From Nocardia asteroides (GTDB lineage Bacteria; Actinomycetota; Actinomycetes; Mycobacteriales; Mycobacteriaceae): 64,000 nucleotides of DNA. Made by a program: the position numbers and the translations under genes. The notes under the pieces were generated by a model. That model was not told where the DNA came from, made no database searches, and saw only the letters and a program-made list of their open reading frames with translations. The stretch lies in the NCBI RefSeq assembly GCF_900637185.1, contig NZ_LR134352.1, forward strand, positions 6,748,001-6,812,000, given 5' to 3'. Position 1 is the first letter of the stretch. Every line of letters begins with the position of its first letter. Shown here piece by piece: positions 10,111 through 26,143 of the stretch.

Positions 10111-12825
10111 TCAGACCGCCGCGTCGTCCAGTGTCGGCAGCAGCGCGGCGAGGTCACCGCGCGAACTGATGCCGAGTTTCGGGAAGATCCGGTGCAGGTG
10201 CGTGCTGACCGTCCGGTGCGACAGGTACAGCCGCTGCCCGATCTCCCGGTTCGTCAGCCCCTGCGCCGCCAGCTGGGCGATGCTGAGCTCGTGCGGCGTG
10301 AGCCGTTCGCGCGCGTCCGGGTCCCGGTTCGGGCTGGATTCGCCGGCGCTGCGCAGCTCGAGACGGGCCCGCTCGCTCCAGGCGGTGAAACCGAGGGCGT
10401 CGAAGATCTCCCTGGCCGTGCGCAGGTGGGTCCGGGATTCGACCACCCGCCGCTGGCGGCGCAGCCACTCGCCGTAGGCCAGGTGCAGCCTGCCGCGTTC
10501 GGCCGGCCAGCCGGTGAGATCGGCCGCCAGTGCCTCGGCGAACATCTCCGCGGCCGAGTCGCCCGCGAGAACGGCTCGGGCATACCGCATTCCGATGTGC
10601 AGCGCCGGGGACGAGGTGGCCGCCGCCACCGGCTCCAGCCCGCGCAGCAGGTTCGCGACGGCCTCGGTGCGGCCCGCGCGCACCGCGGCCTCGCTGAGCT
10701 CGGTCAGGAAGCACACCCGCAGGGCCGGCGAATACGACGGGTCCAGCGGATCGTGGACGCGGGCCAGATCGGTGAACGCGTCGTCGAAACGGCCCTCGCC
10801 CAGGGCGATGATCGCGCGCGTGAGCTGCACGGTCGCCAGCACCGGTCGCACGGCGGCGGCCAGCCCGGTCCGTTCGGTGTCCGCGGCGATAGCCGTGGCC
10901 GTCGGGTAATCCCCACGCAGCGCGGCGATCTCGGCTTGGACGCCGGTGGCGGACGCGTGCATGAAGGTCTGCCCGGTCTCCAGCGCGAAGGCCGCCGCCT
11001 CGGCCGCGATGGGGGCCGCGGCGGCGAGGTCACCGACCCTGGCCAGGCTCCACGCCTGGATGGCCAGCGCCCGCGTCAGCAGGCCGAGCCTGCCCGCGGA
11101 GCGGAAGCCGGGTGCGGCCGCCCCGGCGAAGTGGGCCGCGAGATCGAACGCGCCGACCTGGTAGGCGGCGCTGCTGAGGAAGTAGTCGACCTCCGGGTCG
11201 TGTCCGGTGGTGGCCGCGAGTACCCGGAGCCGGCCGAGGACCTGCTCGCCGCGCTCGAACGGCGCCACGATCGAGTCGATCGCCAGCTTGCGATGATCCC
11301 CGTCGGGGATGCCGAAGGAGTCGGCGACGGCCAGGACCGCGCGCCGGATGTCCGGTCCCGGCTCGGACCAGAAGCACCGCATGGCCGCGCCCCACAGGAT
11401 CCGCAGCGCCGGATCGGGATACCCGTCGGCGGCCACGGCGGCGGCCAGCGCCGCCAGTTCGCCGATCCGCGCCGGGCTCTCCCTGATCCCGTCCTCGGGC
11501 GCGCTGAGTACCCAGCTCGCCGTGGCCTCCTGCCCCGGGGTGAGCGGCAGCGAGCGCGCGGCGTCGACCAGCCGGTCCACGATGTCGCGACGACCCGATT
11601 CGACGGCGAGTTCGGCCGCGCGCAGCAGCCGGTCGGCGCGGCGGCCGGGAGTGCCACTGAGCGCGGCGGCGCGTTCCAGGGCCGCGATGGCCCCGTCGCG
11701 GTGCCTGGCGCGTTCGGCGGCCGCCTCCAGCGCCGCCGCCACCTCCTCGTCGGTGCCCGGCGTGCCCGCCGCCCGGTGCCACACCTGGCGATCCGGCGAC
11801 CCGGCGAGCACGTCGGCCAGCGCCAGGTGCGCGCGGCAGCGCTCCTCCGCCCGCGCCGCCGTGACCAGTGCGGAGCGGACCAGCGGATGGCGGAAAGCGA
11901 CTGTGCCGGAGCCGATATCGATCAGGCGCGCGCTCACCGCCGGCGCGAGCACGTCGGCGTCGACCACGGATCCGATGAGTTGCCCGGTGGCGGCGAGGAT
12001 CTCGGCGAGCGCGTTGCCGTCGTCGAGCGCGGCGACCAGCAGCGCCGACCTGGTGTGTTCGGGCAGTTCCGCGCCGCGAGCCGAGAAGGCGTGTTCGAGC
12101 CGTTCGGTCAGCGGCAGCGCGGCGGTGGTGTCGGCGAGATCGACCGCGGCCGTGGGCAATTCGGTCAGCGCGAGCGGATTGCCGTGTGCCTCGGCGAGCA
12201 CCCGGCGCCGCACCTGGGCCGGTGCGCCCGGCGCCATCCGGTCGAGCAGCGCGTTCGCGTCGGCGTCGGACAGGGGGCCCAGCCGCATCACGGCCAGCTC
12301 GGCATCACGCAGTGGTGAGCTCGCGCCGTCGCGGACGGTGGCGACCAGGACGACGGGTTCGGCATCGATCCGTCGCGCGACGAAGGCCAGCACCTCGGCG
12401 CTGGCCGGGTCGAGCCAGTGCGCGTCCTCGGCGACGACCAGCAGCGGCCGCTCGGCCGCGACATCGGCCAGCACGGTCAGCGCGCCGAGCCCGACCAGGT
12501 GCGGGCTCGGCTCCTCGACCAGGTCCGACATGCCCAGCGCGCAGGTCAGCGCCTCGCGCTGACGGCTGGGCAGCGCGTCGAAGGCCCGGCGCAGCGGATA
12601 CAGCACCCGGTGCAGTCCGGCGTAGGCGAGGCCGTGCTCGGCTTCCACACCCGTGGTCCGCAGCACCCGCAACCCCGCGTCCGCCGCCACCACGACCACC
12701 CGCTCGACGAGGGTCGACTTCCCGATCCCGGGTTCGCCCTCGATCACGACGCCGCTGCGGCCCTCGGGAGCGCCCACCAGCGCGGCCAGTTCCGCCAGCT
12801 CGCTGTCCCGTCCGATCATCGGCAT
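10111..12825 (-). CDS. LuxR-family large ATPase regulator (LAL/MalT-type)
   Basis: A 904-residue transcription regulator with an N-terminal AAA/STAND ATPase (Walker A GEPGIGKST, residues 30-38; Walker B-like LLVVAEDAHWLD), a long helical TPR-like middle, and a C-terminal LuxR helix-turn-helix (LTPHELSIAQLAAQGLTNREIGQRL...). LAL proteins bind an inducer and nucleotide before activating catabolic or secondary-metabolite genes. Size is typical. The flanking hydrolase and dehydrogenase operons, which share an operator-like motif, are plausible targets. Confidence 0.9.
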   Translation of the reverse strand: MPMIGRDSELAELAALVGAPEGRSGVVIEGEPGIGKSTLVERVVVVAADAGLRVLRTTGVEAEHGLAYAGLHRVLYPLRRAFDALPSRQREALTCALGMSDLVEEPSPHLVGLGALTVLADVAAERPLLVVAEDAHWLDPASAEVLAFVARRIDAEPVVLVATVRDGASSPLRDAELAVMRLGPLSDADANALLDRMAPGAPAQVRRRVLAEAHGNPLALTELPTAAVDLADTTAALPLTERLEHAFSARGAELPEHTRSALLVAALDDGNALAEILAATGQLIGSVVDADVLAPAVSARLIDIGSGTVAFRHPLVRSALVTAARAEERCRAHLALADVLAGSPDRQVWHRAAGTPGTDEEVAAALEAAAERARHRDGAIAALERAAALSGTPGRRADRLLRAAELAVESGRRDIVDRLVDAARSLPLTPGQEATASWVLSAPEDGIRESPARIGELAALAAAVAADGYPDPALRILWGAAMRCFWSEPGPDIRRAVLAVADSFGIPDGDHRKLAIDSIVAPFERGEQVLGRLRVLAATTGHDPEVDYFLSSAAYQVGAFDLAAHFAGAAAPGFRSAGRLGLLTRALAIQAWSLARVGDLAAAAPIAAEAAAFALETGQTFMHASATGVQAEIAALRGDYPTATAIAADTERTGLAAAVRPVLATVQLTRAIIALGEGRFDDAFTDLARVHDPLDPSYSPALRVCFLTELSEAAVRAGRTEAVANLLRGLEPVAAATSSPALHIGMRYARAVLAGDSAAEMFAEALAADLTGWPAERGRLHLAYGEWLRRQRRVVESRTHLRTAREIFDALGFTAWSERARLELRSAGESSPNRDPDARERLTPHELSIAQLAAQGLTNREIGQRLYLSHRTVSTHLHRIFPKLGISSRGDLAALLPTLDDAAV

Positions 12826-12982
12826 TCGCGGCGCTCTCCTCCCGGCCCCGCGACGACACGCGGACCGATCGGTACCTTATCGAAAGCCGGGTCCCACCCG
12901 CTCGTCACGCCGAGCACCACACGGTCGACACTCGTACCGCATTCCCGGACCATAGGCGTGTGGGGTGGGAGAGGAGTATCCG

Positions 12983-13249
12983 ATGACCAGCATGTCCGCC
13001 AGCGAGGCACGCGCCAGTCTCTATCCGTTGATCGAACAGGTCAACGACGATGCTGTCGCTATTCATATCACCAGCCGCAAAGGCAACGCCGTACTGATCT
13101 CGGAGGACGAATACAACTCTCTGCGGGAGACGCTGTACTTGATGCGCTCCCCTGCCAACGCGGCACGTCTTGCCCAGGGAATCGCGCAGCTGGAATCCGG
13201 TGACGTGATGGAGATCGACATGGAGCGGCTCGCGAAAGAGCTCGAATGA
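12983..13249 (+). CDS. yefM: YefM/Phd-family antitoxin
   Basis: An 88-residue antitoxin of type II YefM-YoeB systems: N-terminal DNA-binding fold (SASEARASLYPLIEQVNDD, then HITSRKGNAVLISEDEYNSLRETLYLM) and an acidic C-terminal toxin-binding tail. It represses its own operon and neutralises the mRNA interferase. GAGGAG is 6 nt before the ATG, so this start is preferred over an upstream in-frame start. The stop overlaps the toxin ATG by 4 bp (ATGA). The toxin next to it is frameshifted. Confidence 0.92.
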   Translation: MTSMSASEARASLYPLIEQVNDDAVAIHITSRKGNAVLISEDEYNSLRETLYLMRSPANAARLAQGIAQLESGDVMEIDMERLAKELE

Positions 13250-13498
13250 AGGTCGTCTTCGCGAAGGTCGGATTCGAAGACCTCGGCCACTGGACAGCCA
13301 CCGACCGGAAGATAGCGTTGCGGGTCTTACGTCTGATCGACGACATCGATCGCGATCCCTTCTCCGGTCTCGGTAAGCCGGAGCCTGAAGGGCGACAAGT
13401 CCGGCTACTGGTCTCGGCGCATCAATGATGAGCATCGTCTGGTCTACGCCGTCTCCGGCGACAACATCCTCATCGCCCAGGCCCGCTATCGCTACTAG
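13246..13498 (+). pseudogene. yoeB: YoeB-family mRNA interferase toxin, frameshifted
   Basis: The frame starting at 13246 encodes a good YoeB N-terminus up to GLGKPEP (about residue 47), then runs into a stop at 13428 after 60 residues. The rest of the toxin is intact in the next frame, from about 13391 to the TAG at 13498: GDK, SGYWSRRINDEHR, LVYAV and the terminal RYRY, which contain the conserved Arg, Glu and catalytic C-terminal residues. Restoring two bases (CCT to CCTCT) at about 13386 would give the canonical KPEPLKGDKSGYWSRR. It may be a real 2-bp deletion, a read error, or a rare programmed +1 shift. Confidence 0.85.
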
Positions 13499-14868: not shown

Positions 14869-15510
14869 TCAGGCCGCCTCGGCGTGCCGGATGACGATGT
14901 TGCCCAGCGAGTTCCGCGCGAACACGCGCACGGTGTCCACCGGCTCGGCGCCGACCGGGGCCATCGAGTTCTGGACGGTGCCGAGCGAGGTGTCGCTCTC
15001 CAGGCGCGCCGCGCTGCCGGGGTGGATGCCCACCTCGACCGCGCCGACCGAGGTCTCCAGCCGCAGTTCCCCGCGCACGGCGGCGCCGATGCGGATGTCG
15101 CCCTTGGCGGTCTTGGCGGTGACCGAACCCTGCGGCCGCTCGACGACGATGTCGCCCAGCGACACCGTCACCTCGCAGTCGCCGAGCTCGCCGGCGCCGA
15201 GGACCTGGCCCACGCCGGTGGTGCTGGTCAGCCGGGAGCCCGCGGGCACCTCGATGGTCACCGCGATCGCCGCGTTGCCGCCGAACGGGGTGTAGGTGCG
15301 CCAGTTCTTCGGGCTGCTCACGCTCAGGACGCCGTCGGCGAAGTCGACCTTCGTCTGTTCGGCGGCGCGCACGTCGGCCTTCTTGGCCGGGTCCGCGGGA
15401 CGGATCACCACGACGCTGTCGGTGCGCTCGGAGGCGATGACGGTGACATCGGCGGCGAGCACGTCGACGGTGACGGCGATCGGGGCGGGGGTCTGGAAGG
15501 TGGTGGTCAT
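14869..15510 (-). CDS. DUF4097-family beta-strand repeat protein
   Basis: A 213-residue protein made of repeated short beta strands (patterns such as VTVSLGDIVVERPQGSVTAKTAKGDIRIG), the mark of DUF4097/head-GIN domains. These proteins form beta-helices, often beside ABC exporters and regulators, and their function is not established. GGAG precedes the ATG at 15510. The frame stays open to another ATG at 15600, which is exactly where a leaderless promoter would start transcripts. That start would add 30 residues whose first codons resemble those of the ABC ATPase gene at 23570. I prefer 15510 but both may be used. First gene of an operon with the P450. Confidence 0.75.
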   Translation of the reverse strand: MTTTFQTPAPIAVTVDVLAADVTVIASERTDSVVVIRPADPAKKADVRAAEQTKVDFADGVLSVSSPKNWRTYTPFGGNAAIAVTIEVPAGSRLTSTTGVGQVLGAGELGDCEVTVSLGDIVVERPQGSVTAKTAKGDIRIGAAVRGELRLETSVGAVEVGIHPGSAARLESDTSLGTVQNSMAPVGAEPVDTVRVFARNSLGNIVIRHAEAA

Positions 15511-15610
15511 GACGGTCTCCTCGGGAGTCGGTACTGCGCGGTAGTCGGTGAACCGGCACCCTCGGCGTGACCCGGGAGCCGCGCTGGTCGTGCTGTTCAT
15601 GTGGACTACT

Positions 15611-15662
15611 GTCGCGAGCCGCGCTGATACCGGGCTGACACCGGCCTGACGCGCGCCCTGAC
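15611..15662 (-). promoter_or_regulatory. SARP-type promoter of the DUF4097-P450 operon: four 11/12-bp repeats
   Basis: Read toward the gene, GTCAG units occur at 15662, 15650, 15639 and (as ATCAG) 15628, with periods of 12, 11 and 11 bp. After the last unit come 10 nt, GACAGT as a -10-like hexamer, 7 nt, and the ATG at 15600. Taking heptamer units, the last is 8 bp from the -10, as described for SARP activators. The same geometry is repeated at 23570 and 23713. Confidence 0.75.
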
Positions 15663-15717
15663 ACCGCGTCCACCCCGCTCACGCCGAGCAGGTCGGACGA
15701 CCGGTTGACGTGCGGGG

Positions 15718-15723
15718 CACAAT
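15718..15723 (+). promoter_or_regulatory. -10 element of the SARP/AfsR-type gene
   Basis: CACAAT ends 6 nt before the GTG start, with no ribosome binding site between, consistent with a leaderless transcript. Confidence 0.4.
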
Positions 15724-15729
15724 GGGCCG

Positions 15730-18700
15730 GTGCAGATCGCGATGCTGGGACCGCTGGAGATCCGAACCACGGACGGCGGTGCGATCGAGGTACCGGGCGC
15801 CCGGCTGCGGGCCCTGCTGATCGCGCTGGCGCTCGAACCCGGACGCGCGGTCGCCAAGTCGAAGCTGGTCGACTGGATCTGGGGTGAGCAGCCGCCCGCC
15901 GACGCGGCGAACGCGTTGCAGGCCTTGGTCTCCCGCTTACGCCGCGCCCTGCCCGACGGTTCGCTCGAGGTGCAGCCGGGCGGCTACCGGCTGACCGTCG
16001 ACCCCGGCGCCGTCGACGCCGTGCGCTTCGATCAGCTGCTCGACCTGGCCCGTGGCGGCGACGACACGCGACAGGCCGCGCTGCTGCGCGAGGCGGTGCA
16101 GCTGTGGCGCGGCGCGGCCATGCCGGAGCTGGGCGAGAGCACCGAGGCCGCCGCCGTGATCACCCGCTACGAGGGCCTGCGCCTGGCCGCGCTGGAGGAC
16201 CTGTACGAGGCCGATATCCGGCTGGGGCGTGGCCCCGAGCTGGTCGGTGAGCTGACCGACCTGGTCGCGCAACATCCGGTGCGGGAACGGCTGGCCGGCG
16301 CGCTCATGCGGGCGCTGGCCGCCGCGGGCCGCGGGCCGGAGGCGCTGGCGGTCTATCAGCGCACCCGCGAGGAACTGGCCGACGAACTCGGCGTCGACCC
16401 GTCGCCGGAGCTCTCGGCACTGCACGTCGCGCTGCTGCGCGGCGAGGTCGGCGCACGGGCCGAGGAACGCACCACGAACCTGCGCGCCGAGCTGACCAGC
16501 TTCGTCGGCAAGCGCGCCGATATCGCGGCGGTGCGCGAACTCATCGCGGCGCACCGGCTCACGACCGTCACCGGCCCCGGCGGCTCCGGCAAGACCCGGC
16601 TCGCGGTGGAGACCGCGCGCACCATGCTCGGCGATCTGCCCGACGGCGCCTGGCTGGTGGAACTGGCGGGCGCCGACGGCGGCGGTGATCTGGCGCAGGC
16701 GGCGCTGGCCGCGTTCGGGCTCAGGGACGCGCTGCTGGGCAGCGCACCGAACGCCGAGCCGATGGACCGGCTGATCGCCGCGATCCGCGACCGCGAAACC
16801 CTGCTGATCCTGGACAACTGCGAACACGTCGTCGAGGCGGCGGCGGCCTTCGCGCATCGGCTGCTCGGCGAGTGCACCCGCCTGCGCATCCTCGCGACGA
16901 GCCGTGAGCCACTCGGCATCACCGGCGAGGCGCTGTGGCAGGTCGAACCGCTGGCCCTGCCCGCCCCGAACGCCGAGCCCACCGCGATCGCCGCCGCCCC
17001 CGCCGTCGCCTTGCTGCGGGACCGGGCGGGCGCGATCCGCAAGGACCTGGGCACCGACGCGGCGAGCCTGGCGACCATGGCCCGGATCTGCCGCGCGCTC
17101 GACGGCATCCCGCTGGCCATCGAACTGGCGGCCGCGCGTCTGCGCACGATGTCGCTCGACCAGCTCGCGCACCGCCTCGACGACCGCTTCCGGCTGCTCA
17201 CCGGCGGCAGCCGCACCGCGATCCCGCAGCACCGGACCCTGCGCGCGGTGGTCGACTGGAGCTGGGAACTGCTCAGCGACGCCGAACGGCAGGTGTTGCG
17301 CAGGCTCGCGGTGTTCGCCGGTGGCGCGAGTCTGGAAGCGGCCGAACAGGTCTGCGCCGACGGCGGTGCCGTCGAGCAGTGGGAGGTGCTGGAACTGCTG
17401 ACCACGCTGACGGAGAAGTCCCTGCTGCTGGTGACCCCGGACGACAGTCCGCGCTTCCGGATGCTCGAGACCATCAAGCAGTACGCCGCCGACCGCCTGG
17501 TCGAGTCGGGCGATGCCGACGCGGCCCGGCGCGCGCACCTGGACTACTTCACCGGCCTGGCCGAATCCGCCGAACCGCACCTGCGGCGCGCGGAGCAGCT
17601 CAGCTGGCTCGCCGTACTCGAGGCCGAGCACGACAATATCGCCGCGGCCATGCGCGGCGCGCTGGCCGACGCGGACGCCGCCGCGGCGATGCGGCTCGCG
17701 GGGGCCGCGGGCTGGTACTGGTGGCTGGGCGGGCACAAGGGCGAGGGCACCGAACTGGTCATCGCCGCCGCCGAGCTGCCCGGCGAGGTCGACGACCAGA
17801 CCAGGGCACTGGTGTACGGGCTGGTCGTGCACTTCGTCACCTCGGGCCGCAATGACGAACAGCAGGTCGCGGAGTGGATCCGCAAGGCGCACCGGTTCGG
17901 CCGCGAGGCAGGCGGCGGCCATCCCGCGCTGCGCTTCACCGCCGCCCTGGACCGGATGCTCGGCGGCCCGGACGAGTACCTGCCCGCCTTCGAATCGGTG
18001 CTCGACGACGACGATCCCTGGGTGCGGGCGCTGGCCCGGCTCCAGCTGGGCAAGCTGCGCACCGTGCTCGGCCACGCCGGCCCGGAGCCAGACGAGTATC
18101 TCGCGCAGGCGCTCACCGAATTCCGCGCGCTCGGCGAACGCTGGGGCATCTCCTTCGCGCTCACCGAATTGGCCAACCGCACCGCCATGCGCGGCGAATT
18201 CGCCCGGGCCGTGGCACTTCTCGACGACGCGATCGCGGTGGTCACCGAGGTCGGCGCGGTCGAGGACGTGGTGGGCATGCGCGCCAGGCAAGCCCATCTG
18301 CATCAGCTGCTCGGCGATCCGGCGGCGAGCGCCGCCGCCCTGGTTGAGGCGCAGCGGCACGCCGATCAGAACGGCTGGCCCACCGCGCTGGCCGAAGTCG
18401 CCATGGCGCGTGCAGAACTGGCCCGCTGGGGCGACGACCCGCAACTGGCGCACGACCAGATCGCCCTCGCCCGCACGCTGCTCGGCCCCGACGCCGAACA
18501 GCCCAACGTCAGCGCGATGGTGCATGTGCTGCTGGGCTACCTGGCCACCGACCCCGCCGAGTCGGCCACCCATCTCACCGCCGCCTACGCGGCGGCGGGG
18601 GCGGCGGGTCACGCTCCCCTGGTGGCCCACGTGCTCGTCGGCATCGCCGACCTCGCCCTGCGCTCGGGCGAACCGGACCGGGCCGCCCGGCTCCTCGGCG

Positions 18701-18864
18701 CGAGCGACACCACCCGCGGCCTGCCCGACCTGGCCCACCCGGACGCGACCCGGGTCGCCCGGTCCACCCGGGAACACCTGGGCGACAAGGCCTTCCACGC
18801 AGCCGTGCGCGCGGGAGCCGACACCGACCCGGCCGAGCTGGTCGGGCTGGTCCTCGCCCGCTGA
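15730..18864 (+). CDS. AfsR/SARP-family regulator with BTAD, NB-ARC and TPR regions
   Basis: A 1044-residue activator. An OmpR-type winged helix (residues 1-90) is followed by a bacterial transcriptional activation domain (about 95-240), an NB-ARC ATPase (Walker A GPGGSGKT near 281-289; LLILDNCEHV as Walker B), a winged-helix region and TPR-like repeats to the end. Such proteins bind direct repeats next to weak -10 boxes and recruit RNA polymerase. The divergent DUF4097-P450 operon and the ABC exporter/GtrA pair carry matching repeats, so they are likely targets. The GTG start has no Shine-Dalgarno sequence but a -10 at leaderless distance. Confidence 0.92.
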   Translation: MQIAMLGPLEIRTTDGGAIEVPGARLRALLIALALEPGRAVAKSKLVDWIWGEQPPADAANALQALVSRLRRALPDGSLEVQPGGYRLTVDPGAVDAVRFDQLLDLARGGDDTRQAALLREAVQLWRGAAMPELGESTEAAAVITRYEGLRLAALEDLYEADIRLGRGPELVGELTDLVAQHPVRERLAGALMRALAAAGRGPEALAVYQRTREELADELGVDPSPELSALHVALLRGEVGARAEERTTNLRAELTSFVGKRADIAAVRELIAAHRLTTVTGPGGSGKTRLAVETARTMLGDLPDGAWLVELAGADGGGDLAQAALAAFGLRDALLGSAPNAEPMDRLIAAIRDRETLLILDNCEHVVEAAAAFAHRLLGECTRLRILATSREPLGITGEALWQVEPLALPAPNAEPTAIAAAPAVALLRDRAGAIRKDLGTDAASLATMARICRALDGIPLAIELAAARLRTMSLDQLAHRLDDRFRLLTGGSRTAIPQHRTLRAVVDWSWELLSDAERQVLRRLAVFAGGASLEAAEQVCADGGAVEQWEVLELLTTLTEKSLLLVTPDDSPRFRMLETIKQYAADRLVESGDADAARRAHLDYFTGLAESAEPHLRRAEQLSWLAVLEAEHDNIAAAMRGALADADAAAAMRLAGAAGWYWWLGGHKGEGTELVIAAAELPGEVDDQTRALVYGLVVHFVTSGRNDEQQVAEWIRKAHRFGREAGGGHPALRFTAALDRMLGGPDEYLPAFESVLDDDDPWVRALARLQLGKLRTVLGHAGPEPDEYLAQALTEFRALGERWGISFALTELANRTAMRGEFARAVALLDDAIAVVTEVGAVEDVVGMRARQAHLHQLLGDPAASAAALVEAQRHADQNGWPTALAEVAMARAELARWGDDPQLAHDQIALARTLLGPDAEQPNVSAMVHVLLGYLATDPAESATHLTAAYAAAGAAGHAPLVAHVLVGIADLALRSGEPDRAARLLGASDTTRGLPDLAHPDATRVARSTREHLGDKAFHAAVRAGADTDPAELVGLVLAR

Positions 18865-18870
18865 ACGCGG

Positions 18871-21660
18871 TCAGGCCAGCCGGTCCAGGAACGCCCGGAA
18901 CCGGGCGGCTTCGTCGCTGCCGGTGGTCGGCAGGCGCAGCAACGGGAAGTCGTAGCGGCGGCAGATCTGATCCTTGAGCCTGTCGCGGGCGAGCTGGGCC
19001 GGGTCGGCCTCGTGGGTGCCGAAGCCGTCCACCTCGACAGCGCCCGCGTTCTCGTTGGTGATCCGGTTGTAGAGGACGAAGTCGAACGACGCCCGATCCC
19101 GGACGAACCGGCGCTGCTTTTCGTCGAGCCTGTCCAGCGAGCGCGGAAACACGTTCCGCAGGAACACCTGCCGGTGGACGGCGAGGTGGTGGTAGCCGGG
19201 CCGGGCGAGCACGGTCTCGAGCATCGTCAGCGCGATGTCCTCCGACGGCCACTCGGTGCGACCCCACCCGATCAGCGGATGCCTGCGCCGCCGGGCGGTG
19301 TAGTCGGTGTAGAGCAGGTCGAAGATCGACGCCACCTCGCTGTCGACCACCGCGTTGTCCGGGTCCCGGTAGCGGATGTAGCCGATGAGATCGCGCAGGT
19401 GCCTGCTGGCGGGCAGCTCGGACGGGTGCGTGACCAGCACGAACGAGCGCACCGCCCGCGACACCGCGACATTGATCAGTTTCGGGTCGTCGGCGAATTC
19501 CAGTGCCGCCACCGCGCTGCGCGAGTCGTCGAGCACCGTGGTCATGACGACCACTTCCTTCTCCCGCCCCTGGAATTTGTGCACGGTGTCGGATTCGATG
19601 GACTCGATCAGGGCGTCGGCCACCTTGTTCGCCTGGCGACGGTACGGCGTGGTGACCCCGATCTCGTGCGGCGGGGTGTCGGCGGATACCCACGGCAGGA
19701 CCTGCTGCCGGATGACGTCGATCTCGCGCTGATTGCTGCGCCCCTTCGACATCGGGTCGTCGTCGCCGAAGGTCCGGCGCATGTGGTGGCCAGGGACGGT
19801 CCGCACCACCGTCATCGGCGCCGAGCCACCCGTCGCGCCGCGGGTGTAAGGAATCAGCTTGCCGCCATAGAACTTCCGGTTGCAGAACTCGATGATGTCG
19901 GGATCGCACCGGTAGTGCTCGCGCAGCATCGTCCGGGGCAGCTCGGCGCCGAAGAGGTCGATGATCGAGGACAGCACGCTGCGCCGGTAGTCGAAGTCCG
20001 GCGCGGGTGCCTGCGGCGGATCGGCGAGCTCGGTGGTGACGGGCGGCAGCTGCGCCAGATCGCCGACCACGATCACCGTGCGCGCGCAGGCCAGCGCCGG
20101 ACTCACCGTGAGCAGATCCACCTGCGACGCTTCGTCGATGATCAGGTAGTCGAGCAGGAACGAGGGCCCGATGCTGTTCTGGAGCGAATGGCAGGTGCTC
20201 AGGATGAGCGGGTAGTCGCGGGTGAACTGCCGGAACTGCCGATATCGGTAGGCCGGGGTATAGGTCGTGCGCGACAGCGCGCGATACCGCTCGCGCAGCG
20301 CGTCGCCGAGCAGCTGCTGGGACAGCCGGGTCCGGTCGGCGCGCAGCGCCTCGAACTTCTTGTGTTCCAGCGTCTTCGTGAGCTGCTCGACTCGCCGCTC
20401 CAGTTCGGCGATCTTCTTCGCGTAGTACAGGCGCTGGATCCGCAGGACCACCTCGACGTCGCCGGCGTCGACCGTGCGCAGCGCACGGTAGCGGAAGTAG
20501 CGGTTCATGGTGTCGCGCATCCGCTCCCACCCGCTGTCGCGGGGCCGGCGTGGATCGGTGTCGGCGATGAAGTCGAGCAGTTTGTCCGCGCTGTAGCGCC
20601 GCAGCAGCGGCAGGGCGTCGGCGTCGGGCACCTCGCCACGGTCGAAGAAGGACTGGAAGTGCCGCTGTTCCAACTGGTATCCGTGCAGTTGTCCGCGCAG
20701 CTCGGCCCGGCGGCGGTCCTGGTGCTGCAGGTCGTCGAGGCGCCGGTGCACCGCAGCGAGTTCGCTCGCGGTCTTGGTGGCGGGGGTGGCGGCGCCCGCC
20801 CGCAGCAGCGTGTCGACGGCGGTGTGGCGGCCGCCCTGCCGATCGAAGAACTCCTGCCGCTTCTCCGCGCGCCCCAGGTTGGCCGCGACCATCCCGAAGC
20901 CCTCCCTGGTCAGCTTCTCGAAGACGTTGTCCACGGCCGAATTGCTGAACGACACGACCCCCACGGTGGCGTCGGGTCGGCAGATCACCGAGGCGATGAT
21001 GTTGAGGATCGTCTGTGTCTTGCCGGTGCCGGGCGGGCCGTCGATGACCGAGATCGGGTAGCGCAGCGCTCTGCGCACCGCGTCGGTCTGGCTGATGTTG
21101 GTGTGGAAAGGATAGAGCGGCAACGGCATCTCGGCGTCGGGCCGGGCCGGGATCGGCCCCTTGGCGAGGATCCGGGCCAGCGCGCTGTCGGGGTGGACGA
21201 AGTCCAGCTTCTCGTGGTTACGCAGCAGGACACCGGAATCGCCCGCCAGCTTCCCGGCCACGGCGCGCCAGTACGCGAGCACCTCGCGGGATCGGGGATC
21301 GCCCGCGGCGTTCGGCAGCACCAGCACCCGATCCGCGCGGTACACGTCCCACCCGCCACGGCTGTTGAGCACGTGCCACCACGACCCGGCATCCGGCGGT
21401 CCGGTGAACAGGTAGCCGGTGGTCGCGTCCTGCGGCGATCCGTCGACGAACAGCCGCGCGCCCGATCCCAGCGACACCCGCGTCGGATGTTCGAGGATCG
21501 CGACCCGGTCCCATCCGAACGAGTAGTCCCGCGAGCCGCCGAACCGCACCCGGACGTGCCGCGGTCCCGGATCGCAGACGGTGACCTCGGCGGTCCGGTC
21601 CTCGGGGAGACCGTCGGTCTTGCCGCGGATGACGATCGCGACCGCGCCTGGATCGACCAT
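18871..21660 (-). CDS. SF1 (UPF1/DNA2-like) helicase with C-terminal nuclease-like domain
   Basis: A 929-residue protein. After about 200 residues of unassigned N-terminus, a split SF1B helicase follows: GPPGTGKT (208-215), coiled insert (about 300-470), IIDEAS (507-512), GDLAQLPP (533-540), TPYRRQ, VHKFQGRE (693-700) and AVSRAVRSFVLV (732-743). The end has FDFVL (Asp860), EVDG (Glu876, Asp878) and His883, followed by a helix ending in FPLLRL, the outline of DUF2726/Vsr-type PD-(D/E)XK nucleases. Single-gene helicase-nucleases of this build occur in defence or repair; the role here is unproved. It lies alone, convergent with the SARP gene. The ATG at 21660 with GAGGGGG before it is preferred over a start 27 codons upstream. 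Confidence 0.88.
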   Translation of the reverse strand: MVDPGAVAIVIRGKTDGLPEDRTAEVTVCDPGPRHVRVRFGGSRDYSFGWDRVAILEHPTRVSLGSGARLFVDGSPQDATTGYLFTGPPDAGSWWHVLNSRGGWDVYRADRVLVLPNAAGDPRSREVLAYWRAVAGKLAGDSGVLLRNHEKLDFVHPDSALARILAKGPIPARPDAEMPLPLYPFHTNISQTDAVRRALRYPISVIDGPPGTGKTQTILNIIASVICRPDATVGVVSFSNSAVDNVFEKLTREGFGMVAANLGRAEKRQEFFDRQGGRHTAVDTLLRAGAATPATKTASELAAVHRRLDDLQHQDRRRAELRGQLHGYQLEQRHFQSFFDRGEVPDADALPLLRRYSADKLLDFIADTDPRRPRDSGWERMRDTMNRYFRYRALRTVDAGDVEVVLRIQRLYYAKKIAELERRVEQLTKTLEHKKFEALRADRTRLSQQLLGDALRERYRALSRTTYTPAYRYRQFRQFTRDYPLILSTCHSLQNSIGPSFLLDYLIIDEASQVDLLTVSPALACARTVIVVGDLAQLPPVTTELADPPQAPAPDFDYRRSVLSSIIDLFGAELPRTMLREHYRCDPDIIEFCNRKFYGGKLIPYTRGATGGSAPMTVVRTVPGHHMRRTFGDDDPMSKGRSNQREIDVIRQQVLPWVSADTPPHEIGVTTPYRRQANKVADALIESIESDTVHKFQGREKEVVVMTTVLDDSRSAVAALEFADDPKLINVAVSRAVRSFVLVTHPSELPASRHLRDLIGYIRYRDPDNAVVDSEVASIFDLLYTDYTARRRRHPLIGWGRTEWPSEDIALTMLETVLARPGYHHLAVHRQVFLRNVFPRSLDRLDEKQRRFVRDRASFDFVLYNRITNENAGAVEVDGFGTHEADPAQLARDRLKDQICRRYDFPLLRLPTTGSDEAARFRAFLDRLA

Positions 21661-21812
21661 CCGAACCCCCTCGTCCCAGCTCCCCAGCGGACCGCACCGC
21701 AGCCGTCGCGCCGCTGGCGGCCCGATATCCACGCACCACACAGCCTACGTGCGGCGCCTCCAAACCGTCTGGGCTCCAGCACTATTCATGACAAGCCACA
21801 CCGAACACACCG

Positions 21813-21845
21813 ATCGCCCCGGCGATCGGTGATCACCGGGGCGAT
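21813..21845. terminator. Hairpin between the helicase promoter and the ABC permease
   Basis: 10-bp arms ATCGCCCCGG and CCGGGGCGAT (21813-21822, 21836-21845) with a 13-nt loop, 22 bp past the permease stop. It likely ends the ABC operon. Confidence 0.65.
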
Positions 21846-21867
21846 AGGGGTCGGGGGCCGATGGCAC

Positions 21868-22629
21868 TCACGCCCGCTTCGTGAAAGTGGCTCGGGACCA
21901 CAGGTATCCGACCACCGCGAACCCCGCGCACCAGGCCAGCGCCGCGACGGTGTACCCCGTGGAAGGACTTCCGGTCAGGAACCCACGGACTGATTCGATG
22001 ATCGGGGTGAAGGGCTGGTACTCGGCGAACTGGCGGACGCCGGGGCCCATCTTGTCGGCGGGCACGATCGCGCTGCTCACGAAGGGCAGCATGATCAGCG
22101 GCACCACCGACATCCCCGCGGCCTCCGGGGTTTTCGCGGCCATGCCGAGGGCGACGGTGAGCCACGCGGCGGCGAAGGCGGTGGCCAGCAGGACACCGAG
22201 CGCGCCCAGCCACTGCGCCGCACTCGCCGGGGAACGGAAGCCCAGCGCGAAGCCGACGGCGAGGACGGAACCGATGGCGACCACGTTGGTCACCATGCTC
22301 GCCGCCACATGTCCGGTGAGTACGGCGCCCCGGGACACGTCCATCACCTTGAACCGGTTGATCACCCCGGTGGTCATGTCGGAGCTCACCGACACCGCGG
22401 TACCGGACAGGCCGTAGCTGATGGCCAGCATCAGCATGCCGGGCACCGCGTAGTCGATGTAGTTCTCGCCCACGTCGAACGCGTCACCGAAGACGTAGAC
22501 GAAGATCAGCATCATCACTACGGGCATCAGCGCGGCGTTGAAGATCGTGACGGGCGAACGGGTGATGTGGGTGAAGTTGCGGCGCAACATGACCGACGAG
22601 TCGAACAGGGCGGCGGACAGGGTGCTCAT
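21868..22629 (-). CDS. ABC-2 type drug exporter permease (DrrB-like)
   Basis: A 253-residue membrane protein with six hydrophobic segments, of the ABC-2 permease family that includes DrrB for daunorubicin. An N-terminal amphipathic stretch (LRRNFTHITRSPVTIF) precedes the first helix, and the conserved PGMLML and VSRGAVLTGHV loop regions are present. It overlaps the ATPase stop by ATGA, a tight stoichiometric pair. It works with the ATPase to export a hydrophobic compound, possibly the P450 product or a toxic analogue (inference). Confidence 0.9.
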   Translation of the reverse strand: MSTLSAALFDSSVMLRRNFTHITRSPVTIFNAALMPVVMMLIFVYVFGDAFDVGENYIDYAVPGMLMLAISYGLSGTAVSVSSDMTTGVINRFKVMDVSRGAVLTGHVAASMVTNVVAIGSVLAVGFALGFRSPASAAQWLGALGVLLATAFAAAWLTVALGMAAKTPEAAGMSVVPLIMLPFVSSAIVPADKMGPGVRQFAEYQPFTPIIESVRGFLTGSPSTGYTVAALAWCAGFAVVGYLWSRATFTKRA

Positions 22630-23570
22630 CGGGCTTCGGCCTCCGTGGTGGGGTGCCCGGTGAGGGCGAGGAATACGTCGTCGAGATCGGGGGTGTGCAG
22701 CGAGACCTGCTCGGCCTCGAGGTCGTGGGCGGCGAGCCGGTCCAGCAGTGCCCGCAGGGATTTCGAGTCGCCGTCGCCGGGCACGCTCAGGGTGAGCGCG
22801 TCGGTGTCGGCGGTGGCGCCGGGCACGATGTCCGCGGCCGTGGCCAGCTCCGCCGCGGTGGCGAAGCGCAACCGGATGTGGCTGCCGGGCACCCGGCGCT
22901 TGAGTTCCTCGGCGGTGCCCTCGGCGACGATCCGCCCCTGGTCCAGGACCGCGATCCGGTCGGCCAGCTGGTCGGCTTCCTCGAGGTACTGGGTGGTGAG
23001 GAAGATCGTCACGCCACCGGCGGTCAGCTCGCGCACGATCTCCCACATGGTGCGCCTGCTGCGCGGGTCGAGACCGGTGGTCGGCTCGTCGAGGAAGACG
23101 ATCTCGGGCTTGGTCACCAGGGTCATCGCCAGGTCCAGCTTCCGGCGCATGCCGCCGGAGTAGCTCGCGGCCTGCTTGTCCGCCGAGGCGGTGAGGTCGA
23201 ACCGCTCGAGCAGGTCGCCGACCACCCGCTTGCCCTCCGCACCGCGCAGGCGGTGCAGGTCGGCCATGAGCTTCAGGTTCTCCGCGCCGGTGAGCAGGTC
23301 GTCGACCGCGGCGAACTGGCCGGTGACGCCGATCGCCGCGCGGACCGCCCCGGTCTCGGTGTCGAGATCGTGTCCCGCCACCCGCGCGGTGCCGCCGTCG
23401 GCCTTCAGCAGGGTGGTCAGGACGTTCACGGTGGTGGTCTTGCCCGCGCCGTTCGGGCCGAGCAGGGCGAAGATGGTGCCCGCGCCGACGGTGAGGTCGA
23501 TACCGTCGAGGACTGTCTTGTCCCCGTAGGACTTCCGCAGCCCGGAGGCCGCGATGGCTGTGCTGTTCAT
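22626..23570 (-). CDS. ABC exporter ATPase (DrrA-like)
   Basis: A 314-residue ATPase with Walker A GPNGAGKTT (38-46), Q-loop at VTGQFAAVDD, signature SGGMRRK, Walker B VFLDEPTTGLD and the H-loop region TQYLEEAD; the C-terminal 90 residues form the DrrA regulatory domain ending in DLDDVFLALTG. It powers the permease encoded downstream. The ATG lies 7 nt after a -10-like GACGGT with four GTCAG repeats upstream, the same promoter pattern as at 15600. Confidence 0.93.
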   Translation of the reverse strand: MNSTAIAASGLRKSYGDKTVLDGIDLTVGAGTIFALLGPNGAGKTTTVNVLTTLLKADGGTARVAGHDLDTETGAVRAAIGVTGQFAAVDDLLTGAENLKLMADLHRLRGAEGKRVVGDLLERFDLTASADKQAASYSGGMRRKLDLAMTLVTKPEIVFLDEPTTGLDPRSRRTMWEIVRELTAGGVTIFLTTQYLEEADQLADRIAVLDQGRIVAEGTAEELKRRVPGSHIRLRFATAAELATAADIVPGATADTDALTLSVPGDGDSKSLRALLDRLAAHDLEAEQVSLHTPDLDDVFLALTGHPTTEAEAR

Positions 23571-23580
23571 GGGAACTACC

Positions 23581-23632
23581 GTCGCCGGTGCGGCTGATAC
23601 CGACCTGACAGCGCTCTGACACGGCGGCTGAC
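23581..23632 (-). promoter_or_regulatory. SARP-type promoter of the ABC exporter: four 11/12-bp repeats
   Basis: Read toward the gene, GTCAG units sit at 23632, 23620, 23609 and (ATCAG) 23598, spaced 12, 11 and 11 bp, then 10 nt, GACGGT, 7 nt and the ATG. Every distance equals that of the promoter at 15611-15662. Confidence 0.75.
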
Positions 23633-23651
23633 AGCGCGACCGGCGGCCGGC

Positions 23652-23705
23652 GCCAGTGGCGTGTCAGTCCGGCGTCAGGTCGGCGTCAGCGGGCCGGGCG
23701 AGCGT
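23652..23705 (+). promoter_or_regulatory. SARP-type promoter of the GtrA gene: three GTCAG repeats
   Basis: GTCAG at 23663, 23674 and 23685 (11-bp period), with a degenerate GCCAG at 23652; then 10 nt, GAGCGT, 7 nt and the GTG at 23713. It is the divergent partner of the ABC promoter and keeps the same repeat to -10 to start distances. Confidence 0.7.
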
Positions 23706-23712
23706 TGTCCGC

Positions 23713-24189
23713 GTGAACAGCATCGCCATCGCCACCCCGGTCTTCGGTCCCGTCCTCGCCCCGATGCCGCTCCGGGAACCGCTCGCCCGTGTCCGGCGGG
23801 CGCTGCGCGGCGATCACGTGTTCGCCCAGCTGGTCCGGTTCGCGCTGGTCGGCGGAGTCAGCAATATCGCCTACGCGGCGCTGTTCCTGGCGTGCGGCGG
23901 GTTCGGCGCGCTGGTCGCCAACGCGATCGGCTCGGTGGTCAGCACGGTGCTCGCCAACGAACTGCACCGCAGGCTGACCTTCCGCGCGGCGGGGCGGGTC
24001 GGCTGGTTCACCGCCCAGTGGGAAGGCGGCGGGCTGGCGCTGGTCGGCCTGGCCACCAGCACCGCGGCCCTGGCCGGGCTGGCGGCCGTGGCGCCCGGCC
24101 TCGGCGGGGCCGCGCAGGCGGGCGCCGTGCTGGCGGTGCTCGCGGCGGCGGGCGGTCTGCGGTTCCTGGCGCTGCGCGGCCTGTTCTGA
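23713..24189 (+). CDS. GtrA-family membrane protein
   Basis: A 158-residue protein with four hydrophobic helices and the GtrA signature around the first helix (FALVGGVSNIAYAALFLA) and NELHRRLTFR at the end of helix 3. GtrA proteins help move or present polyprenyl-phosphate-linked sugars across the membrane for GT-C glycosyltransferases. A GT39-like gene lies convergently 7 bp away, a sensible partner. The GTG start is fixed by the promoter geometry; its first codons (MNSIAIA) resemble those of the ABC ATPase (MNSTAIA). Confidence 0.8.
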   Translation: MNSIAIATPVFGPVLAPMPLREPLARVRRALRGDHVFAQLVRFALVGGVSNIAYAALFLACGGFGALVANAIGSVVSTVLANELHRRLTFRAAGRVGWFTAQWEGGGLALVGLATSTAALAGLAAVAPGLGGAAQAGAVLAVLAAAGGLRFLALRGLF

Positions 24190-24196
24190 GGCCGGG

Positions 24197-25786
24197 TCAG
24201 CGCGTGGGCCGGGTACTCGTGGCGGGATCGCGCCAGAGCCCGAGGTCGTAGTACAGCGTGGTCATCGAGTCCCACATGACCGACCAGGGTTCCCGCGGCC
24301 CCTGGCATTTCCAGACCGCGACCATACGGTCGATGCCCGGAACGCCCAGTGGATCGTCGAGCCCGCCCACCCGTTCCACCTGGGCGAAACGGCTCCGCAG
24401 ATCGGCTTCGGCGGTGTCGAGGCCCACATAGATCACGGTGGTCGCCGAATCCGGTGGCGGGCCGAAGAACCCGAAACCACGGCTGGGGCTGTAGGTGGCG
24501 GGCAGGTCGTACCGCCCGCCGAAGTGCTCGATGGCGCCGGCTTGCGGATAGCCCTGCGCGACGATCACCGCGTGCGCCTGCTCCGCCGGGGTCAGCGTGT
24601 CGTACCCGGCGTCGACGGCCGCGACCAGCGAGGTCCAGTTGGTGTTGCCGAAGAATGCCGCCCGGAGACCGAGATCGATCGCGTCCTCGGCCTGTGTGCG
24701 CCAGCCGGGCGACAACGGCACCACCGTGAGGGTCACCAGCACCACCAGCACCGACAGCGCCGCGATCGGGTAGAGCGCCAGGTTCATCCAGCGCTTGCGG
24801 TCGTACTGCCACAGCCCGACCGCGCCGAGGGCGAACATCGCCGGGAACAGCCCGCCCGGGTAGTAGGGCCTGCCGTGGGTCAGCATCACGAAGGCGGTCA
24901 TGATCACCAGCGCCACCGCGATGAAACGGTAGGGCCGCAACGACTCCTGCTTGAACGCCGCCCACAACCCGATCGCGAGCAGCAGGGTCCCCATGACGCC
25001 GGCCAGGATGGGCCACTGCGGCAGGAATCCGATGGGGCCGTAACCGGTGGCGTCCTGTTCGGCGCCGATGACCGCGCCCATGGCCAGCTGGGGCCAGTTG
25101 TGCTGGGACTGCCAGTAGAGGATCGGGACCAGCGACGCCGCGAGAATGCCGGTCGCCACCCACAGCGCCGGGCGCCGCAGCACCTCGCGGGGGCCGCACA
25201 GCACCACGGCCAGCCCGAGGCATCCCCACACGATCGGGATCATCCACTTCACCTGCATGTCCACGGCGGCGACCAGACCCGCGACCACGATCAGCCAGTC
25301 CTGCCGGGTACGCACCCAGCGGATGAACAGCCAGGTGATCACGGCGGTGAAGGTGGCGTCGAACGAGAAGGTGCTCAGCACCACCTGATTGGCCGCCAGA
25401 CCCGACATCGCGTAGGCGGCCGCGGCGAGTAGCTGGGCACGGTGGCTACCGCGCAGCTCATACGCGATCAGGGCCGCGATCACGACCGCGCCCACGCACA
25501 TCAGCACCGCGGGGAACCGCAGCGCGATCACCGATCCCGGCGCGAGCTGATCGGAGATCCAGGCGACCAGCGGGACGATCACACCCTGGTCGGCGTAGGT
25601 GTAGTCGAGCCGCCGCCCGGCGGAAAGGAAATAGAGTTCGTCACCGAAGAATTCGTATCGCCCCGCCGTCGCGGTCAGCACGATTGCCGTGATCGAAGCG
25701 ATCAGCGCGACTCCGCGATAAGCGAACGACGGGTGAATATTCGGTACATCTTCCGGCACGGCGCGTGCCGTGATGACCGCTGTCAT
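24197..25786 (-). CDS. GT39/ArnT-like GT-C glycosyltransferase
   Basis: A 529-residue multi-pass protein with about 11-12 hydrophobic segments. The first extracytoplasmic loop has FFGDELYF, the acidic motif of GT-C enzymes that use polyprenyl-phosphate sugars, as in dolichyl-phosphate-mannose protein mannosyltransferases (GT39) and ArnT (GT83). A soluble domain follows the last helix. The acceptor, protein or cell-wall glycan, is unknown. ATG 25786 with AGGGGCAG upstream removes an implausible 61-residue N-terminal extension. Convergent with gtrA. Confidence 0.85.
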   Translation of the reverse strand: MTAVITARAVPEDVPNIHPSFAYRGVALIASITAIVLTATAGRYEFFGDELYFLSAGRRLDYTYADQGVIVPLVAWISDQLAPGSVIALRFPAVLMCVGAVVIAALIAYELRGSHRAQLLAAAAYAMSGLAANQVVLSTFSFDATFTAVITWLFIRWVRTRQDWLIVVAGLVAAVDMQVKWMIPIVWGCLGLAVVLCGPREVLRRPALWVATGILAASLVPILYWQSQHNWPQLAMGAVIGAEQDATGYGPIGFLPQWPILAGVMGTLLLAIGLWAAFKQESLRPYRFIAVALVIMTAFVMLTHGRPYYPGGLFPAMFALGAVGLWQYDRKRWMNLALYPIAALSVLVVLVTLTVVPLSPGWRTQAEDAIDLGLRAAFFGNTNWTSLVAAVDAGYDTLTPAEQAHAVIVAQGYPQAGAIEHFGGRYDLPATYSPSRGFGFFGPPPDSATTVIYVGLDTAEADLRSRFAQVERVGGLDDPLGVPGIDRMVAVWKCQGPREPWSVMWDSMTTLYYDLGLWRDPATSTRPTR

Positions 25787-26143
25787 GAACTGCCCCTGGT
25801 ATTTCCGATCGTGACGCCCCCCTCCCGTCGGCGGCGTCACGTCTGTTCGCTGATGAACCGATTGCTCCCCGGCAGCGAACTTTTCGAGGCCATGCTCGCG
25901 GTCCTGCTCGGATTGTTCAGTTGACCGGAACGTTATCGGCTGTCGGCAGGGTCCGCAAATACGCGGCACGGCAATAGCGAATCGCTGTGATTAACGCGCG
26001 AACGGGGCGGGTACAGATGTGATCTCGGCGATAAAACGGTAACGGCGCCAATGATCATTTCGAATTGATGACCCGAATTACCGAATATCAGAGCGAGGAT
26101 TTCAGGCAAGTCCCGGAAATGATTGTCGGTAACGGGATTGACC
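25787..26143. other. Divergent intergenic region before the alpha/beta hydrolase gene
   Basis: About 390 bp with lower GC than the genes. It holds the 5' leader of the glycosyltransferase, with an inverted repeat GTGACGCC (25811-25818) / GGCGTCAC (25833-25840), and the MerR-type promoter on the right. No convincing gene is seen in it. Confidence 0.45.

Follow-up and report, generated by a model that had tools for sequence, protein, structure and literature searches.

How does a large AfsR-like regulator come to stand among genes for an exporter, a cytochrome P450 and a membrane protein, and does it control them? The question is raised by a locus in a 64,000-nucleotide stretch of the Nocardia asteroides genome (hereafter the window; positions are given within it). 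There, a gene for a 1044-residue regulator of the Streptomyces antibiotic regulatory protein (SARP) type (15730..18864, forward strand; Pfam BTAD E 1.3e-35, Trans_reg_C 6.1e-08, AAA_22 5e-06) occupies the third place in the order P450 (-), DUF4097 (-), regulator (+), helicase (-), ABC-2 permease (-), DrrA ATPase (-), GtrA (+). An initial annotation of the sequence had proposed that three promoters of identical geometry make the P450, exporter and GtrA units a local regulon of this gene. Our comparative analysis indicates that the regulator very probably switches on the exporter, the P450 and the membrane protein through one shared promoter design. The full explanation that we consider likely is that the regulator activates these three units, that the output is detoxification of small molecules, and that part of the regulon came from copied 5′ ends of exporter genes. 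SARPs with their operators, and likewise DrrA exporters, belong to types already described. A search of the open-licence PMC literature, judged by titles and abstract openings, found neither GTGTCAG as a SARP box nor copying of a promoter together with codons; as far as that search shows, the operator, its cross-genus link to an export and degradation regulon, and the growth of a regulon by copying a leaderless promoter plus coding sequence would be new.

Three promoters of the window share one design

The first promoter (15608..15664, reverse strand) has four SARP boxes at steps of 12, 11 and 11 bp (GTGTCAG at 15664-15658, GCGTCAG at 15652-15646, GTGTCAG at 15641-15635 and GTATCAG at 15630-15624), followed by 10 nt, the hexamer GACAGT (15613-15608), 7 nt and an ATG at 15600. 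The second (23578..23634, reverse strand) likewise has four boxes at steps of 12, 11 and 11 bp, then 10 nt, GACGGT (23583-23578), 7 nt and an ATG at 23570. The third (23661..23705, forward strand) has three good units (23661-23667, 23672-23678 and 23683-23689) at steps of 11 and 11 bp, with a degenerate GCCAG further upstream, and reaches its GTG at 23713 by way of 10 nt, GAGCGT (23700-23705) and 7 nt. The geometry that the initial annotation had described, including the 11-bp period of the rightward promoter, the 12-11-11 spacing of the two leftward ones and the common N10-GAnnGT-N7 path to ATG or GTG, can be read directly from the sequence; its description of every unit as GTCAG needs correction, since the last unit of the first and second promoters is ATCAG.

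The second promoter precedes the gene for a DrrA-type ATP-binding cassette (ABC) exporter ATPase with a predicted leaderless start (22626..23570, reverse strand; 322.7 bits against TIGR01188 drrA, exceeding the cut-off of 312.45), which is overlapped by the gene for the ABC-2 permease of the exporter (21868..22629, reverse strand; Pfam ABC2_membrane E 1.7e-21). The third precedes a gene for a GtrA-like membrane protein with a predicted leaderless GTG start (23713..24189, forward strand; Pfam GtrA_DPMS_TM E 2.8e-06). The first precedes a DUF4097 open reading frame (ORF) that runs from the predicted leaderless ATG at 15600 (14869..15600, reverse strand; Pfam DUF4097 E 2.5e-4, its 20.9 bits lying below the cut-off of 22.9), and downstream of this ORF, in the same orientation, lies a gene for a CYP105-like cytochrome P450 (13644..14864, reverse strand; Pfam p450 E 3.7e-25; best PDB match CYP105AS1). 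Between the DUF4097 and P450 genes lie 4 bases, and none of the neighbouring ORFs of the window was recognised as a ferredoxin. After the promoter, all three coding sequences begin with RTGAACAGCA. Folding the three 50-nt 5′ ends revealed no unusual RNA structure (z -0.50, 0.14 and 1.12).

The arrays occur at few places in the genome

Both shuffling and genome searches rule out that the boxes are chance repeats. Three GTCAG units separated by 5-7 nt matched 3 times in the window versus 0 in 100 dinucleotide shuffles, and in the whole genome (one contig of 6,983,363 bases) gave only 5 matches at 4 places, namely the three promoters of the window and a distal site at C1:642459. The distal array has the same steps of 12, 11 and 11 bp, 10-nt interval and GACAGT, stands ahead of an alpha/beta hydrolase gene with a leader, and has GGCTCGCGACAGTAGT in common with the promoter at 15600. 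Searching the genome for the boxes plus N10-GAnnGT with up to 3 mismatches returned the same 4 places and one register-shifted hit (reversed-pattern control, 1). When the -10 hexamer and spacing were combined with RTGAACAGCAYNRCC, only the three window promoters matched without mismatch; at up to 2 mismatches there were 19 hits, and the other 16 all carry 2. The genome search that the initial annotation had called for thus yielded four places and not many unrelated genes at random spacing. Its idea of a local regulon holds for the three window units; a purely local regulon is ruled out by the site at C1:642459. Because an alpha/beta hydrolase gene adjoins the exporter in N. xishanensis (L029), we link the hydrolase at the distal site C1:642459 to this system.

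The locus and the exporter promoter are conserved across genera

We fetched the loci of 80 relatives of the regulator. The exporter gene was present in 60. In 59 of these the permease gene is convergent with the regulator gene, its distance from the regulator's end being at most 500 nt in 50, 0.5-1.3 kb in 8 and 2.9 kb in one (L018). A P450 of at least 70% identity occurred in 40 of the 80 loci and DUF4097 in 37. (By eye, a ferredoxin-like gene stands ahead of the P450 gene in the operon of several Nocardia relatives, L022 among them.) The helicase gene that separates regulator and exporter in the window (18871..21741, reverse strand; AAA_11/AAA_12 plus DUF2726) had no match in the fetched locus of any of the 80 relatives and therefore looks inserted; with the permease at most 1.3 kb from the regulator's end in 58 of the 59 convergent loci, its earlier description as unrelated is borne out.

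As the reference for scoring exporter starts we took the register 12-11-11-N10-GAnnGT-N6/7/8-start. Among 58 loci (20 from Nocardia and 38 from Streptomyces, Amycolatopsis, Kribbella, Micromonospora, Nonomuraea and others) the promoter departed from it by 0-8 mismatches in 57 and by 19 in one (L032); the minimum in 1684 random places was 11. Exporter promoters of Kribbella and some Amycolatopsis have only two or three good units. In SARP sites, as passages of one report describe them, the 3′ repeat lies 8 bp from the -10 (PMC10936776), and the register of these 57 exporter promoters conforms, its repeats having an 11-bp period and stopping about 8 bp short of the -10.

Further regularities emerged from 159 strict sites, pooled from the window, the loci of the 80 relatives, 70 distal regions (which hold 71 of the sites) and three others; genes next to the regulator are over-represented in this pool, and it is without five sites of one genome (G050) and most regulator-adjacent sites beyond the 80 relatives. 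GTGTCAG was the commonest heptamer at all three positions and GACAGT the commonest hexamer (67 of the 159 sites). A fourth unit lay exactly 12 bp upstream in 102 sites and at 10, 11 or 13 bp in 3, and was absent in 54; this recurring 12-bp first step departs from the 11-bp SARP rule. An ATG or GTG followed the hexamer after 6-7 nt in 106 sites (directly followed by a stop in one of these, L181), and because of this short gap the transcripts of the exporter gene, the GtrA gene and the DUF4097-P450 operon probably start at or next to the start codon, that is, they would be leaderless. If the start codon is taken as the transcription start site, a 7-nt gap puts the two proximal units on -41 to -20 and a 6-nt gap puts them on -40 to -19. 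AfsR, according to the same passages, occupies two 11-bp repeats over -40 to -19 of a promoter whose -10, CACTGT, is poor (PMC10936776).

Sites co-occur with the regulator

If the regulator acts through these boxes, sites and regulator should be found together. In 59 genomes of the genus, the relaxed pattern RWCAG N6 RWCAG N6 RWCAG N10 GANNGT detected 155 sites in 50 genomes, and the reversed pattern detected 0 in all 59. Taking at least 60% identity to define an ortholog, we found a site in 49 of 49 genomes with a regulator ortholog (including G028, whose ortholog frame is interrupted by two stops) versus 1 of 10 without (Fisher p = 8e-10). Three genomes with only paralogs of 38-46% identity (G034, G038 and G041) had no site, which argues that the sites track this regulator and not another SARP. 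The targets went the same way in a chosen set of 14 genomes of the genus, 4 of which have the regulator: 3 of these 4 contain the P450 (E <= 1e-130) and 3 the exporter ATPase at 73% identity or more, and each is missing from all of the other 10, ATPase paralogs of 58-69% occurring on both sides. In a draw of 246 genomes of the class, three of them of the genus, a site was present in 12 of 27 genomes with a relative of the regulator (match at E <= 1e-220) versus 0 of 219 without (p = 2e-13); by best identity, in 11 of 22 with a relative of at least 60% and 1 of 5 with one of only 53-54%. Together with the exporter registers, the co-occurrence in the genus lends strong comparative support to the earlier proposal that the regulator would control the P450, exporter and GtrA units, and in Nocardia the operator is specific enough for targets to be recognised from the genome sequence alone.

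Several observations weigh against this reading. Within the genus, G022 carries a site although it lacks the regulator ortholog. Of the 27 class-draw genomes with a relative, 15 were without the strict pattern, and 11 of these 15 have a relative of at least 60% identity. A looser two-unit pattern, run on 28 chosen genomes, rescued only 3 of these 11 (two sites lie 1.7-2.6 kb beyond the regulator's end and one is on another contig); it matched 0 of 4 genomes with a 53-54% relative and 1 of 13 with no relative, with 0 matches of the reversed control. Two class-draw genomes (G112 and G144) have their sites on contigs other than the regulator's, and the G112 site may be chance. In addition, related genomes are not independent samples, and one base-contacting residue of AfsR, Thr88, is replaced by Ala65 in the regulator. 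Since the genome-wide pattern search separates poorly outside the genus, the link there rests on the exporter promoters.

These observations bear on the explanation that the boxes are bound by a different SARP or by some unrelated factor, the regulator standing nearby by coincidence. The 7 BTAD proteins encoded in the genome of the window, the G022 site and the absence of the strict pattern from 11 of the 22 class-draw genomes with a relative of at least 60% identity speak for it. Against this, sites in the genus follow this very ortholog and are absent where only the paralogs occur. Moreover, the G022 site has an exporter-like 5′ end (MSSTVIAVSGTRNAFGDNT) at its start and so looks like a relic of a lost system; it lies in locus L157 (C14:427900-437900), ahead of a boxed PF00144 gene, in a genome that has neither the regulator ortholog nor the P450. 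We therefore regard binding by another factor as very improbable and retain this regulator as the candidate activator.

The regulator resembles AfsR and has a putative box-free promoter of its own

The regulator has the domains that define a SARP, an N-terminal winged-helix DNA-binding domain (Trans_reg_C, 33.1 bits, cut-off 26.2) and BTAD (123.4 bits, cut-off 22.1), together with an AAA/NOD-like ATPase domain. Its best PDB match is AfsR (8k60, E 1e-34), followed by EmbR (2fez), and its C-terminal part aligns weakly with the TPR part of AfsR; against the NCBIfam AfsR equivalog NF053617 it scores 168.9 bits, the cut-off being 1430. To judge from these comparisons, the protein works like AfsR but is not AfsR. 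In the alignment of the PDB match, the base-contacting Arg92 of AfsR corresponds to Arg69 of the regulator. Among named organisms, its closest relatives belong to Nocardia (N. cyriacigeorgica, 79 and 84% identity).

AfsR with its target afsS of Streptomyces coelicolor (8k60, 8jke and 8hvr) is accordingly the nearest described system. It has the same layout of SARP, ATPase and C-terminal sensor parts, and likewise 11-bp direct repeats lying immediately before a poor -10, at the same position relative to the probable transcription start site; the system described here differs in the GTGTCAG box, the three to four units, the 12-bp first step and the export and degradation targets. A second comparison is offered by PimR-type regulators, SARP-LAL proteins whose operators are given in part of one report as CGGCAAG heptamers with 4-bp spacers in a triplet, with one target gene, pimM (PMC5930380). 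Heptamers, 4-bp spacers and the triplet are shared; the heptamer sequence and the class of targets are different.

By analogy, at least two protomers of the regulator would bind GTGTCAG units along the same face of the DNA and immediately upstream of the poor -10 (GAnnGT), and the bound regulator would recruit RNA polymerase, as has been seen for AfsR on the afs box. The regulator gene itself seems to follow another scheme. A putative box-free promoter element, GGCACAAT (15716..15723, forward strand), lies 6 nt before its GTG, and GGCAnnAT is found at most 18 nt from the regulator start in 70 of the 80 relatives. A two-unit box array on the regulator strand within 120 nt was found neither in the window nor in the relatives save one (L081), and we reject autoregulation because the array is missing in the window and 79 of 80 relatives. 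Given this box-free element, what sets the activity of the regulator is probably a signal that acts on its ATPase and C-terminal parts rather than autoregulation.

The targets point to a probable role in export and degradation of small molecules

What, then, would the regulator be for? To each of the 159 strict sites we assigned as target the best match of a protein library within 450 nt downstream. The targets were the exporter ATPase (38), an alpha/beta hydrolase (27), ferredoxin/P450 (26), DUF4097 (24), a 134-residue protein, alone or fused to PF00144 (20), GtrA (15), a PF00144 hydrolase (5), RibD_C (1) and another ABC ATPase (1), with 2 unassigned. The 71 distal sites preceded chiefly the alpha/beta hydrolase (25) and the 134-residue protein, alone or PF00144-fused (20), and then GtrA (9), DUF4097 (6), PF00144 (5), P450 (2), the exporter ATPase (1), the other ABC ATPase (1) and RibD_C (1), with 1 unassigned. 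(The 134-residue family, seen under the same boxes in L130, L135, L171 and others and sometimes fused ahead of a PF00144-like hydrolase part, gave no Pfam match in the one member scanned.)

An exporter together with a CYP105-like P450 and, elsewhere, hydrolases suggests a response to toxic small molecules, which would be oxidised, hydrolysed and exported; such a programme is probably the output of the regulon. The best solved relative of the P450 is CYP105AS1 (397.7 bits), and P450-SU1 (CYP105A1, 318.6 bits) and CYP105Q4 are among the best 60 PDB matches. Part of a review describes CYP105A1 and CYP105B1 of Streptomyces griseolus as herbicide-inducible, with induction by foreign compounds (PMC4265290). 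The P450 of the window shares the CYP105-like character with these enzymes, but CYP105A1 ranks below CYP105AS1 as its solved relative. In the main text of that review, 'sarp' and 'transporter' each occur 0 times. For the exporter, the likeness to the daunorubicin-resistance exporters DrrAB lies in the ATPase, and the difference in the permease, which falls below the cut-offs of the DrrB family (66.5 against 146.9 bits), drrB (36.1 against 223.05) and drrC (37.9 against 165.65).

This view of the output draws on protein families only, and GtrA and DUF4097 would fit envelope stress equally well. The regulator could thus control the same three units in the service of the cell envelope, with DUF4097 and GtrA acting on the envelope, the exporter moving a lipid or an envelope-active peptide, and the P450 modifying an endogenous lipid. 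The recurrence of GtrA and DUF4097 among the targets, both in the pool (15 and 24 of 159) and at distal sites (9 and 6 of 71), favours this possibility, and DrrAB-type exporters are not necessarily drug pumps. It accords less well with the commonest distal targets, the hydrolases and the 134-residue protein, and with a P450 resembling CYP105, which the part of the review cited above presents as a family with many xenobiotic substrates (PMC4265290). A role in envelope stress therefore seems to us unlikely, though it is the strongest competitor to detoxification.

Alternatively, the regulator might be pathway-specific, the P450 and the exporter finishing and secreting a natural product of a biosynthetic cluster. 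Most studied SARPs activate antibiotic biosynthesis, as noted in parts of two reports (PMC10936776, PMC5930380), and CYP105s occur in biosynthetic clusters too, according to the review (PMC4265290, in part). However, 157 of the 159 sites were assigned to nine families of tailoring, hydrolytic, export or membrane proteins, none of them scaffold-making (the library having been built from clusters, and not every downstream protein having been scanned singly). The distal sites are, moreover, scattered over each genome, and the module recurs in many genera, which makes a biosynthetic role improbable. We thus return to detoxification as the probable output. SARPs are familiar chiefly for switching on antibiotic biosynthesis. 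The AfsR-like one described here is associated, in many genera of actinobacteria, with an exporter and frequently with a CYP105-like P450, and in Nocardia also with hydrolases. This suggests a SARP-controlled defence programme and offers a testable candidate for the induction of such P450s by foreign compounds.

Some regulon members share 5′ ends with the exporter gene

How genes so different came under one promoter design is suggested by their first codons. The 5′ end of the exporter ATPase gene (23531..23570, reverse strand), a donor-like segment, resembles those of the other two window units: over nucleotides 4-39, in register, DUF4097 is identical to it at 24 of 36 nt and GtrA at 21 of 36. 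In several other Nocardia genomes the match is longer, with the exporter's predicted leaderless promoter and as many as 30 of its codons ahead of GtrA, P450-operon and PF00144 genes. The GtrA gene of L138 begins MNSTAIAASGLGKAYGVKTILDGID, and 92 nt of it can be aligned to the exporter start of L026, MNNTAIAASGLRKAYKDKTI; the copied start reads in frame into GtrA, homology to which begins at residue 42. The leaders of the ferredoxin-P450 genes of N. brasiliensis (L020) and N. vinacea (L033) align to the exporter over 52 and 70 nt, the copied pieces being short ORFs of 31 and 45 codons that end before the ferredoxin-P450 genes without fusion, and the PF00144 gene of L157 aligns over 57 nt to the exporter 5′ end, in frame. 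All four alignments (L138, L020, L033 and L157) score above 100 shuffles. (L213, from G017, was rejected as an exporter partner because it is a different boxed gene.)

We then scored starts with a matrix built from 21 Nocardia exporter starts, using as the null 1231 ORF starts, 1228 of which are not from exporter genes. Of 67 non-exporter leaderless sites, 23 outscored all 1228 non-exporter starts; the three null starts that scored higher are exporter ATPase genes themselves. By family, these were 8 of 15 for GtrA, 10 of 13 for ferredoxin/P450, 2 of 9 for DUF4097, 2 of 4 for the 134-residue protein, 1 of 3 for PF00144 and 0 of 2 for others; none of the 21 alpha/beta hydrolase sites had a copied 5′ end by this measure. 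In the window, the score of DUF4097 was reached by the three exporter starts only, and that of GtrA by 9 of the 1231 starts, three of them exporter. Free local alignment to the exporter 5′ end was marginal for DUF4097 (37 versus a maximum of 33 in 100 shuffles) and did not beat the shuffles for GtrA (34 versus 36). The case for copying within the window therefore rests on the in-register identity, and for the window's GtrA it is weak.

Exporter ATPases keep SGLRKAYGDK across many genera, which makes the exporter gene the likely source of the shared 5′ ends. Taken together, these data make it fairly probable, in our judgement, that the Nocardia regulon (GtrA, the ferredoxin-P450 operon, the PF00144 hydrolase and probably DUF4097) grew by copying of the exporter 5′ end as a portable leaderless cassette, and that some copies later lost their ATG and fall back on a Shine-Dalgarno start. 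Because operator, -10, start and first codons span about 100 bp, one duplication could bring a new gene under the regulator, and the new gene would gain a start codon and a short foreign N-terminus with it. In several leaders an ATC or GTC replaces the start codon and the following letters persist, so that translation must begin downstream.

Instead of being inherited by copying, the shared RTGAACAGCACAGC start might have been favoured by selection because it serves leaderless translation or early transcription. CA-rich sequences following the start are reported to help leaderless translation, and sharing of the first 5-6 codons extends to more genes than sharing of the rest (to the 134-residue protein and the window's GtrA, for example). 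Yet in several genes the similarity extends 50-92 nt, into the exporter's SGLRKAYGDK region, which a membrane protein such as GtrA has no evident reason to imitate. Selection without copying is, on this evidence, rather unlikely, and we prefer descent of the shared starts from the exporter gene, which would illustrate concretely how new members join a bacterial regulon.

The initial annotation took 15600 as the start of the DUF4097 ORF of the window, which now appears doubtful. An in-frame ATG at 15510 (codon 31) is preceded by a GAGGAG Shine-Dalgarno sequence, the ATG at 15600 placing 30 extra in-frame codons before it, and homology among 37 relatives begins at residue 16-35 in 33 and at residue 1-10 in 4. 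Because of the GAGGAG and the point at which homology begins, the conserved DUF4097 core probably starts at 15510 and not at 15600.

Other genes near the locus

Three further features flank the units described above. A large LuxR-family regulator (AAA_16 plus GerE) is encoded at 10111-12825, near the P450 operon, and a YefM/YoeB-type toxin-antitoxin pair lies at 12965-13428, its toxin ORF of 60 residues matching 43 of 80 profile positions. On the other side, at 24197-25861, a gene for a glycosyltransferase-like PMT_2 protein is convergent with the GtrA gene.

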